Of a DNA stretch of 38,535 nucleotides, positions 13,356-38,520 are shown one piece after another (positions within the stretch are counted from its first letter, which is position 1; the number at the start of each line of letters is the position of its first letter). Below the pieces are notes generated by a model. That model saw only the letters and a program-made list of their open reading frames with translations, did no database searches and was not told the origin of the DNA. This stretch comes from an uncultured archaeon (GTDB taxonomy: Archaea > Thermoproteota > Bathyarchaeia > 40CM-2-53-6 > CALIRQ01). The stretch covers positions 1 to 38,535 of the forward strand of contig CALIRQ010000014.1 in assembly GCA_938042195.1 (NCBI GenBank), in the 5' to 3' direction. The position numbers and the translations under genes are program-made.

Positions 13356-15854
13356 CTAGGAGCTCGAGCGGATCGATTCAACGATCCTCTTCGTCGCCAT
13401 CATCGGATCGGCCGCCCTCGTCACCGCAGCTCCGACGATTATTATCTTGGCCCCCGCCTTCACGAGCTTCCTAGCGGTATCGTAGCGAATCCCCCCGGCA
13501 ACCGCTAGCGGGATCGATATCGACCTCGCTAGGTCCGCTATGAGGGATACCTTCCTATCGACCTCCTGATCCCTGTCCCTTTGCACGTCTATCGCCGAAT
13601 GGGCGCAGATGTAATCCGCCCCCAGGGCCTCTATCTCTTTGGCGCGCTTGATGGGATCCATCACCTCCAATAGGTCGACCATGACCTTTGCCCCATATTT
13701 CTTCGCGCATCCCACGGAATCCCTTATGGTGTTATCGCTGGCCAATCCGGATATTGAAACGATATCCGCGCCCGCCAAGACCGCTATCTCAGTTTCCAGC
13801 CAACCAGTATCCAAGGTCTTGAGATCGGCTACGATCGTCGCCGATGGGAACCGCCTCCTGAGCTCGCTGACGGCCCTCATGCCCGCGCTCTTGACCAAGG
13901 GCGTTCCCGCCTCCAGCCATTCGGCCCCGCCCCTGTGGGAGAGCTCTGCTATCCTGAGGGCTTCCTCAAGGTCCCTAAGGTCCAAGGCGACTTGGAGCTT
14001 CGGCCACGTGGGCTGCGAGATTACCCCCAATTCATGGAGCTTCTTATCGGATGGAACGCCGTTGGGCATCCATCCCCTGATGGCATAATACTCATCCAGC
14101 ATCGAGTCCAAGTCTGCGATCTGGCCCTCTGCTGGCCCGGAGGGCATCGGGATCTCGCTCAACCTCGGCGGCAGCGAATCGTCGGCCCTCCCGAACCCCT
14201 CGCGGACGTTGAATAGGCGCTCGATGTTGTAAATCCTCTCCCCGGCCCGGCGGAACTCCTCCTCATCGAAATAGAATCCCGTCGCCGTCGTGAGGAGGCG
14301 GGCGTAGAAGTAAGGCTCATATTCCAAGGTCTTGAACAGGGCCAGCGTGGTGTATTTGCATACTATCATGCTGTCCAAAACGGCGAATACGTCCTGCATC
14401 CTCTTAACGAGCCCAGCCTTCCCTTCGGCCTTCAGGGGATCCAGATAACGCGGAAGGCTCAATATCTCGCTCTCTATCATATAGGCCCTGAGGTGACAAC
14501 CGCCCCTGTTCGATGTGGCGTAGGCGAGCCCTTGGCCCTTCGCCCCCCTCGGGTCGTAGGCCGGGAGCTCCATTCCCTTCACGTGCATGGCGAACTCCTT
14601 CCCGCCGATCCTCTCCGAAACCCTCTTCACGCCCTCCGAGGCCAGCTCACCGATCCCCCTTCGCTCAGCAGTCAGCCTTACCATCCTCTCGACGGCCTCG
14701 TGGTTCCCCCATTTCAGGTCCGGCTCCTTGAGCTCCAATAACCCCCTCTCCCGGGCCTCCATCAGGAAGCCGATCGTATTGCCGAAGGAGATCGTATCTA
14801 GCCCATAGAGGTTGCAGAGATGGTTTATCAGGGCTATCCTGCCTATATCCGAGATCCCGCAATTCGGGCCGATCGACCATACGGTTTCGTACTCCGGCCC
14901 CTCGCTCGTTATCTCCCCATCCGGGCCCTTTATCCTAGTGATCCTCCCGCACATTATCGGGCAGGCGAAGCAGCCCTTCTTCTTGACGAGGATGCTCTTC
15001 GCTATCGCCTCCCCGCTCACCGCCTCCGCCTCCTCGAAGGTCCCCTGCTGGAAGTTCCTCGTTGGCAATATCCCGGCCCTGTTTATTATGTGGACCAAGG
15101 AGGCAGTGCCGTATCTCCCCAAGGTATCGCCTGTCAAGGGATTCCGGGAAAGCACTTCGTTAACGATCTTGACCTCCTTCAGGAAGGCGTGCTCGTTCGC
15201 GGGCTCAATCCTCTCATCGCCCAAGGCGGCCACCGCCTTAAGCCCCTTCGATCCCATCACCGCCCCCAAGCCCCCCCTCCCCGCGGCCCTATGGACATCG
15301 GCCATTATGGAGGCGATCCTGACCCGGTTCTCCCCGGCCGGCCCTATCGAGGCCACCCTAACCCTATCGTCTCCTACCTCGCTTCTTATTCCCTCCTCGG
15401 TCTCATCCACGAGCTTCCCCCAGAGGCGCTCGGCCGGCCTGAGCTCGGCCCTCCCGTTGCGGATTAGGAGATAAACCGGGCTTGGGCTGGCTCCCTCTAC
15501 GATTATCGCATCAAAACCCGCTCTCTTCAGCTCCACCCCTATGCGGCCACCGCAATTCGAATCCATTATGGTGCCGGTTAACGGGCTTTTGGCGGAAACG
15601 GAGAACCTTCCAGAGGTTGGCGCCGGGAGCCCGGTCACGGGCCCTGTGGCGAATATCAGGATGTTCTCCGGGGATAGGGGGTCCAAGCCCTTCGGGAGAG
15701 CATCGTAAAGGAGCTTCGCCGCATAACCCCTTCCGCCAACGTATTTGGCCGCAACCTCCCAATCCAGCCCCTCCGTCTCAATCGATCCAGAGGAAAGGTC
15801 CACCCGGAGGACTCGGCCCATATATCCGCCGTATTTGCCCAAAGCGCGCTCCAC
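13356..15854 (-). CDS. Aldehyde:ferredoxin oxidoreductase fused to hexulose-6-phosphate synthase
   Basis: A continuous 832-residue fusion. Residues 1-605 or so are an AOR-family tungsto/molybdopterin enzyme: YMGRVLRVDL, TGPVTGLPAPTSGRFSVSAKSP, GRGGLGAVMGSKGLK, the 4Fe-4S ligands CFACPIMC plus a distal cysteine in DSMIVCKYT, and LDTISFGNTIGF. Residues 618-832 (bases 13356-14003) are a complete HPS/KGPDC-type barrel: LQVALDL, EAGTPLVKSAG, ADLKTLDTG (the D-x-K-x-x-D catalytic set) and AVAGGIRYDTA...IIIVGAAVTRAADP. The AOR half oxidises aldehydes to acids with ferredoxin. HPS interconverts hexulose 6-phosphate with ribulose 5-phosphate plus formaldehyde. The frame is open to 15971, but TTTATC near 15890 and the upstream terminator favour GTG 15854; TTG 15842 and ATG 15821 remain possible. 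Confidence 0.93.
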   Translation of the reverse strand: MERALGKYGGYMGRVLRVDLSSGSIETEGLDWEVAAKYVGGRGYAAKLLYDALPKGLDPLSPENILIFATGPVTGLPAPTSGRFSVSAKSPLTGTIMDSNCGGRIGVELKRAGFDAIIVEGASPSPVYLLIRNGRAELRPAERLWGKLVDETEEGIRSEVGDDRVRVASIGPAGENRVRIASIMADVHRAAGRGGLGAVMGSKGLKAVAALGDERIEPANEHAFLKEVKIVNEVLSRNPLTGDTLGRYGTASLVHIINRAGILPTRNFQQGTFEEAEAVSGEAIAKSILVKKKGCFACPIMCGRITRIKGPDGEITSEGPEYETVWSIGPNCGISDIGRIALINHLCNLYGLDTISFGNTIGFLMEARERGLLELKEPDLKWGNHEAVERMVRLTAERRGIGELASEGVKRVSERIGGKEFAMHVKGMELPAYDPRGAKGQGLAYATSNRGGCHLRAYMIESEILSLPRYLDPLKAEGKAGLVKRMQDVFAVLDSMIVCKYTTLALFKTLEYEPYFYARLLTTATGFYFDEEEFRRAGERIYNIERLFNVREGFGRADDSLPPRLSEIPMPSGPAEGQIADLDSMLDEYYAIRGWMPNGVPSDKKLHELGVISQPTWPKLQVALDLRDLEEALRIAELSHRGGAEWLEAGTPLVKSAGMRAVSELRRRFPSATIVADLKTLDTGWLETEIAVLAGADIVSISGLASDNTIRDSVGCAKKYGAKVMVDLLEVMDPIKRAKEIEALGADYICAHSAIDVQRDRDQEVDRKVSLIADLARSISIPLAVAGGIRYDTARKLVKAGAKIIIVGAAVTRAADPMMATKRIVESIRSSS

Positions 15855-37644: not shown

Positions 37645-38520
37645 TCATTCCCCGAGCCTCGCCATCGAGGCCACGACCTCCTCCGCATCCCTCCCCTCCG
37701 CGATCGCTATGCCGTAGAGCTTGGCAAGCCTCCGCGCGCCATCCGAGAGCCTCGGCATGGCGACGAGCACGGCCTTCGCGGGGCGTGCGTCGAAAACCTT
37801 GGCGAAGAACTCCATCACCTCCTCCTCCCCGACCTCCGAATCGGAGGAGGCTATGGAGATGGCGAGGTAATCCCCGCCCCTCTTTGCGACCAAATCGAAC
37901 GCATGCTCCGCGCCCGAGGCCCCCCTCAGGGCGCTCAGGTCCTCGATCCGATAGCCCCTCGATTCCAAATAATCGGATATCGAGGCCCCTAGGGAGCAGG
38001 CCAACGCAACCTCCCCCCTCAAGGCTTCGTTGAACCTATATTCGCATATATGCCTCAGGTGGGCTTCCTCGTGGGTGAATTTGAAACCGCAGGCCATGCA
38101 TATATGGCGCACGAGCGGGGTCGCGAAATTCGCCCCGCAATCCAAGCATTCGAAGGAGCCGCGCATGCGGCCATAATCCGCCCCCGCCGATATGAGGCGC
38201 CCCCCGCATTTAGGACAGGCCAGCCCATTTCCCCTCGCGAACACCTCCCCTGGACCGATGAAGCCGCAACGGTAATGCTCGATTAGCTCCCCCCTCCCGA
38301 GCCTCGGGCTTCGGCAGGAGGGGCATAGATATCTATCGTAGAACTCCGGGGAATCGCATCTCGGGCAAAGGGGTTGCACATCGATTATATCCTTATGGAA
38401 GAGGCCCAGGTTCGATAGTTCCTCCAAAATCCCCAAGCCCACGCCCTCCGGGGCCCCATCAAGATCCAGCGCGTAAAGGCCCCCCTCCTCCTTGGGCATT
38501 ATGGATCCATGGCCATCCAT
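37645..38520 (-). CDS. Multi-zinc-ribbon (TackOD1-like) protein with nuclease-like C-terminus
   Basis: A 291-residue protein whose frame stays open through the window edge, so the true N-terminus may lie outside. Residues 49-160 hold a string of zinc motifs: CPRC...YLCPSCRSPRLGRGELIEHYRCG, CPKCGGRL, ECLDCGANF, and CMACGFKFTHEEAHLRHIC. The first part resembles the TackOD1 output domain described from Thaumarchaeota. Residues 165-291 look like a restriction-endonuclease-type fold: helix, then EHAFDLVAKRGGDYLAISIA, then KAVLVAMPRLSDGARRLAKLYGI. The D is present but the E-x-K of the strand reads ISIASS, so catalytic ability is doubtful. It could sense or bind nucleic acid. Family calls are by eye. 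Confidence 0.65.
   Translation of the reverse strand: MDGHGSIMPKEEGGLYALDLDGAPEGVGLGILEELSNLGLFHKDIIDVQPLCPRCDSPEFYDRYLCPSCRSPRLGRGELIEHYRCGFIGPGEVFARGNGLACPKCGGRLISAGADYGRMRGSFECLDCGANFATPLVRHICMACGFKFTHEEAHLRHICEYRFNEALRGEVALACSLGASISDYLESRGYRIEDLSALRGASGAEHAFDLVAKRGGDYLAISIASSDSEVGEEEVMEFFAKVFDARPAKAVLVAMPRLSDGARRLAKLYGIAIAEGRDAEEVVASMARLGE

Follow-up and report, generated by a model that had tools for sequence, protein, structure and literature searches.

An aldehyde:ferredoxin oxidoreductase fused to hexulose-6-phosphate synthase in Thermoproteota, a probable formaldehyde-disposing counterpart of Fae-HPS

A single polypeptide, composed of a predicted tungsten-dependent aldehyde:ferredoxin oxidoreductase (AOR) followed by a hexulose-6-phosphate synthase (HPS), is encoded in the window, a 38,535-nucleotide stretch of DNA from an uncultured archaeon (contig CALIRQ010000014.1). 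Judging from its residues and from the genes that accompany it, this protein is probably a bifunctional enzyme, which makes pentose phosphate while disposing of formaldehyde and which takes the place that Fae-HPS has in related archaea. Many archaea obtain ribose by running HPS and the isomerase PHI backwards, and one toxic formaldehyde is released per pentose. The AOR-HPS fusion offers a concrete answer to the fate of that formaldehyde in species lacking Fae, and one that can be tested, in Methanosuratincola among others.

The fusion gene has 871 codons when counted from the first TTG and contains no stop codon down to 13356 (Table 1). An earlier sequence-only reading had described it as a single-chain fusion in one frame at 13356-15854. 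The frame is as described there and full-length fusions occur in 17 further instances elsewhere. However, the strand is to be given as minus, and the start is uncertain: it might be the ATG at 15821 or a TTG or GTG a few codons upstream. The junction, which had been placed near 14003, is located by the domain limits at about 14003-14024. The alignment of the AOR half to the AOR of Pyrococcus furiosus spans the full length, and a few residues separate the usual AOR C-terminus from the start of the barrel, so that there is almost no linker between the two enzymes.

Table 1. Position of the AOR-HPS fusion gene, its domains and its principal motifs in the window
Feature	Position	Strand	Remarks
AOR-HPS fusion gene	13356..15821	-	single open frame; 821 aa from ATG at 15821
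AFOR_N domain (tungstopterin-binding, N-terminal)	15219..15818	-	Pfam PF02730, residues 7-206, E 2e-80
AFOR_C domains 2 and 3	14025..15170	-	Pfam PF01314, residues 223-604, E 7e-147
Hexulose-6-phosphate synthase domain (HUMPS barrel)	13383..14003	-	PF00215 OMPdecase/HUMPS, residues 612-818, E 1e-33
Junction of AOR C-terminus (HELGVIS) and HPS start (PKLQVALDL)	14004..14024	-	domain limits
CFACPIMC, three of the four Fe4S4 cysteines (C284, C287, C291)	14949..14972	-	invariant in 18 fusions
Fourth Fe4S4 cysteine, C488	14358..14360	-	invariant in 18 fusions and across the AOR alignment of 64 rows
D-x-K-x-x-D catalytic motif (DLKTLD; D666, K668, D671)	13809..13826	-	invariant in 18 fusions
Catalytic histidine H741 of the HPS barrel	13599..13601	-	invariant in 18 fusions

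The fusion is genuine, and it is conserved. In a scan of 84,980 species genomes the 17 other full-length fusions were recovered, which are 59-92% identical to the window protein. All of them are archaeal and are labelled Bathyarchaeota, Hecatellales, Methanomethylicota or relatives, among them Methanosuratincola. Upon reading of the contigs, each was found to be one uninterrupted frame. The plain AORs in the same scan are 35-54% identical and end where the AOR ends. Whole-genome searches yielded more fusions inside the class and inside the phylum. The main group of fusions, clade A, was found in 34 sampled genomes belonging to nine families of Thermoproteota, in two of which (G385 and G449) the fusion is present only as fragments at contig ends. 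The search of archaeal genomes for the same domain order, which had been suggested from the sequence, thus recovered it in about 34 sampled genomes. Both halves are strongly conserved among the 18 aligned fusions (59-92% identity).

The AOR half has complete AFOR_N and AFOR_C domains and, as had been claimed, all four Fe-S cysteines, which are invariant in the 18 fusions. The second-shell residues T239, E312, Y422 and H443 are likewise invariant in this alignment. They are the equivalents of Thr243, Glu313, Tyr427 and His448 in the numbering of the P. furiosus enzyme, and the roles of these four residue types have been described (PMC12096430). The AOR half scores 585 bits against AOR (PDB 1aor) and 377 bits against formaldehyde:ferredoxin oxidoreductase (FOR, PDB 1b25), and its structure model has a TMt of 0.96 to 1aor, to which it is 48% identical, and of 0.91 to FOR. 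Membership of the FOR family is excluded by both comparisons. By its sequence the half is a complete AOR sensu stricto tungstoenzyme of the predicted broad-specificity type, having the fold, the Fe-S ligands and the second-shell residues of 1aor and other AORs sensu stricto. The solved AORs lack an HPS domain, and those that are fused make up a lineage of their own with fusion-specific conserved residues. A characterised AOR oxidises formaldehyde with a Km of 93 uM, but prefers acetaldehyde (9.7 uM; PMC10816221). The assignment to the broad-specificity AORs rather than to FOR and the preference of the characterised enzyme for longer aldehydes both speak against a formaldehyde sink. Two further AOR genes are present in the window genome. 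On its contig C19 (L003:325-2553) there is an AOR-family protein in which N-terminal 4Fe-4S ferredoxin-type domains are fused to AFOR_N/AFOR_C.

The genome to which the window belongs (G000) is 1.27 Mb in size and 93.6% complete, so that absences from it are not certain. The fusion is the sole HPS found in this genome. PHI is a separate gene (product of 199 aa) on contig C5, situated between ECF/ABC transporter-type genes and an amidohydrolase gene (L175:5324-7259), away from the fusion. The sequence-only reading had pointed to PHI, Fae and the oxidative pentose phosphate genes as the ones to look for; in this 93.6% complete genome PHI is present, whereas Fae and 6-phosphogluconate dehydrogenase (6PGD) were not detected. 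Nor were Mch of the H4MPT pathway, a transketolase N-domain or McrA found there. Fae was also not found in G022 or G023, and the fusion protein itself has no Fae domain. PHI is present in 30 of the 34 clade A genomes. Among the 32 fusion genomes searched, 6PGD is absent from 31 and the transketolase N-domain from 24. Several fusion genomes keep Mch, and in eight fusion genomes an HPS-RraA-like frame provides a second HPS.

As neither an oxidative nor a non-oxidative pentose route was found, HPS and PHI are likely the pentose source of the window genome, which would make formaldehyde an obligatory by-product. The HPS half most likely runs toward ribulose 5-phosphate, releasing formaldehyde, because it is the sole HPS and is accompanied by PHI, and because neither Fae nor Mch, 6PGD or the transketolase N-domain was detected. 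In the proposed mechanism, the separate PHI would convert fructose 6-phosphate to hexulose 6-phosphate, which the C-terminal HPS domain would cleave to ribulose 5-phosphate and formaldehyde. Oxidation of formaldehyde to formate would then take place in the N-terminal tungsten domain, with two electrons passed to ferredoxin. Removal of formaldehyde would pull the unfavourable cleavage forward and prevent toxicity. The formate may feed formate-dependent purine synthesis via PurP, and two PurP-type (DUF1246) genes are present in the window genome. The suggestion that the fusion is a formaldehyde-disposal module, made originally from the sequence, is thus supported in part, by its genome context, to which the exclusion of Fae-HPS within the class is to be added; formaldehyde as the AOR substrate, the direction, channelling and energy conservation are what we infer.

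The arrangement resembles that of the Fae-HPS fusions of methanogens and Bathyarchaeia, in which a C-terminal HPS likewise follows an N-terminal enzyme able to capture the formaldehyde of the reverse RuMP pathway. The N-terminal sinks differ: that of AOR-HPS is a tungsten oxidoreductase, predicted to yield formate and reduced ferredoxin, whereas that of Fae-HPS is Fae, which loads tetrahydromethanopterin. The Fae part of Fae-HPS has been proposed by Kono et al. to capture the released formaldehyde at once (PMC5241800), and a role of Fae-HPS in ribose 5-phosphate synthesis has been proposed as well (Goenrich 2005, as cited in PMC5241800 and PMC8407382). The distribution of Fae was examined in a panel of 60 genomes, 34 with a clade A fusion, two with a clade B fusion and 24 without a fusion, which is not a random sample and in which relatives are not independent. 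Fae is present in four of the 34 clade A genomes and in 14 of the 24 that have no fusion (p 0.0003 by genome). In the class of the window none of the eight fusion genomes has Fae, as against 12 of the 15 non-fusion genomes (p 0.0003 by genome, but only 0.07-0.09 by family). Nearly all of the Fae-bearing non-fusion genomes have Fae-HPS fusions of about 370-490 aa. The contrast is also seen in the order to which the window belongs: AOR-HPS occurs in family f1, where both Fae and Mch are lacking, whereas families f3, f4 and f6 have Fae-HPS together with Mch.

Among the sampled genomes, Fae-HPS and clade A AOR-HPS are thus mutually exclusive within the class. AOR-HPS looks like a replacement for Fae-HPS and is best understood as answering the same problem with another sink. 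This replacement is not a strict one: a stand-alone Fae is kept in four f54 fusion genomes, the clade B genome G028 encodes Fae in a separate frame, and Mch occurs in several fusion genomes. The retention of Mch also excludes that the fusion is strictly tied to a lost H4MPT pathway.

In the tree, the HPS domains from 32 clade A fusions group together with support 100/98. Their clade is sister to an HPS-PHI fusion (PDB 9lj9) and is not of the Fae-HPS lineage. The HPS domains of the clade B set (G028, G355 and G118) are placed elsewhere in the tree, nearer to Fae-HPS, and forced joining of the clade A and clade B domains was rejected (p-AU 0.0008). The AOR halves of all the fusions, in contrast, form one lineage, which contains no free-standing AOR among those sampled except the TAG-split G118 (SH-aLRT 99, quick tree). 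In G118 (L113, about 6689) AOR and HPS lie in one frame with a single in-frame TAG between them, and may represent a split pair, the remains of a fusion that has decayed, or a case of TAG read-through. Fumarase beta and alpha genes are found inverted directly downstream of the fusion both in clade A Methanomethylicia and in the clade B genome G355 (L010:10592-12014; L190:2223-3622).

The simplest reading is one old locus, in which the HPS part was exchanged or strongly diverged. A single ancestral locus fits better because the AOR halves are one lineage and the fumarase genes are inverted downstream in both clades. Two wholly independent fusions would account for the two HPS lineages, yet not for the one AOR lineage and the common fumarase genes, and were rejected. 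Functional coupling would predict such a pattern, in which an HPS partner is always retained although it is not always the same one. A gene for a ThiS/MoaD-like protein adjoins the fusion, divergently, in seven loci of Methanomethylicia (L011:7574-7849; equivalents in L012-L015, L018 and L019). The protein is of a kind used in pterin-cofactor synthesis and is possibly tied to the synthesis of tungstopterin. Frames of 613-643 aa in two other loci (L192 and L193, genomes G488 and G480) have a C-terminal HPS and an N-terminal domain of about 390 aa without Pfam hits, in which a CxxC-type motif is kept. A weak profile match to the clade B AOR (E 0.002, probability 14%) suggests that this domain may be an eroded AOR half.

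A structure model of the fusion, built in one piece from a 64-row alignment, has a mean pLDDT of 94.1 and a pTM of 0.93. It replaced a model from 18 rows, which was poor in the AOR half. The high pTM suggests that the two domains have a defined mutual arrangement in the predicted structure. A more specific form of the proposal is put forward tentatively, namely that the protein is a channelled enzyme with two active sites, in which formaldehyde from HPS would pass straight into the tungsten site to give ribulose 5-phosphate, formate for purine rings and reduced ferredoxin. It would be an H4MPT-independent alternative to Fae-HPS, and one AOR lineage would have taken up two HPS domains.

It is unlikely that the two halves are both active but uncoupled, the AOR acting on other aldehydes, of amino acid or sugar origin, while the fusion serves stability, assembly or co-expression. 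The broad-specificity type of the AOR half would suit such a role, as would the two additional AOR genes of the window genome, which show that aldehyde oxidation is a wider activity there. However, all sampled members of this AOR lineage adjoin or are joined to an HPS, including HPS domains of two lineages of different ancestry, and no clade A fusion genome of the class panel has Fae.

Coupling in the opposite direction, in which low-potential ferredoxin would serve the AOR in reducing formate and HPS would fix the resulting formaldehyde onto ribulose 5-phosphate, is improbable as well. AORs can reduce acids, the uphill reduction of formate would be drawn forward if it were tightly coupled to HPS, and a route from formate via formaldehyde into RuMP, using other enzymes, has been proposed for Desulfurococcus amylolyticus (PMC7143981). 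Net assimilation of formate nevertheless requires that ribulose 5-phosphate be regenerated, and this direction is less likely because the transketolase N-domain needed for it was not found in the window genome, nor in three quarters (24/32) of the fusion genomes. Absence of 6PGD is almost general in these genomes, and the cell needs a source of pentose, for which no other was found.

The disposal of formaldehyde presupposes that the C-terminal barrel is an HPS. Its residues D614, E637, D666, K668, D671 and H741 are invariant in the 18 aligned fusions, which agrees with the complete D-x-K-x-x-D set claimed earlier. Alignments showed HPS-type residues (D716, I744 and A775) at three positions that we take to be those separating HPS from KGPDC. 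The same positions carry the mutations E112D/R139V/T169A in a KGPDC variant crystallised with D-ribulose 5-phosphate (from the PDB titles). The best PDB match of the half is 9lj9, with 48% identity over the barrel. The window protein reaches 191.5-195.7 bits against the TIGR03128 model of HPS, just under the curated cut-off of 200, and D745 is replaced by S in the fusions of Methanomethylicia. Both observations would be compatible with another HUMPS-family enzyme, for instance one with a different sugar phosphate as its substrate. This is very improbable, as most of the orthologous fusions pass the cut-off (202-217 bits), the specificity positions are of the HPS type, the half groups as sister to an HPS-PHI of solved structure, and PHI accompanies the great majority of clade A fusions. 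There is practically no doubt that the fusion is not an artefact of assembly or annotation: in spite of the TAG between the halves in the distant relative G118, the frame is uninterrupted in about 30 separately assembled genomes, and the join near 14003, where a missed stop or an assembly error had been considered, is conserved in all 17 further fusions.

Fusions of HPS to PHI and to Fae were those listed in the sequence-only reading. Both exist, but the list is incomplete, as an HPS-RraA/MenG-like fusion (PRK07028) is also known in archaea. In the latter HPS is N-terminal and its partner is not a redox enzyme, whereas in AOR-HPS the HPS is C-terminal. HPS-PHI, the closest characterised relative of the AOR-HPS barrel, has as its partner the isomerase that is separate in the window genome. 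In agreement with that reading, no fusion of HPS to an AOR was found in the open literature searched, where the two are only mentioned together without a fusion; a prior mention in subscription papers, preprints or supplements is possible. A survey of archaeal fusions reports HPS-PHI and contains no word beginning with "aldehyde" in its main text (PMC11237513). AOR-HPS, carried by some deep-branching archaea, looks like a previously undescribed solution, in which HPS is fused to a formaldehyde sink as in Fae-HPS and the sink itself is unprecedented. For Brockarchaeota, oxidation of formaldehyde by a separate AFOR alongside HPS and PHI has been proposed (PMC8065059), so that the idea, though not the fusion, has a precedent. 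The reverse RuMP pathway was already inferred for most hot-spring Bathyarchaeia (PMC8407382), and one species of Methanosuratincola has been isolated and grown with tungstate in the medium (PMC12244365). If the proposal is correct, a tungsten AOR would have a specific anabolic role and the supply of ribose would be linked to formate and ferredoxin.

In the window itself, a gene for an ATP-dependent DNA ligase is convergent with the fusion gene and lies 3 bases from it. Close to the far end, at 37645-38520, a protein is encoded in which an Mrr-type endonuclease-like domain comes after a TackOD1 domain.
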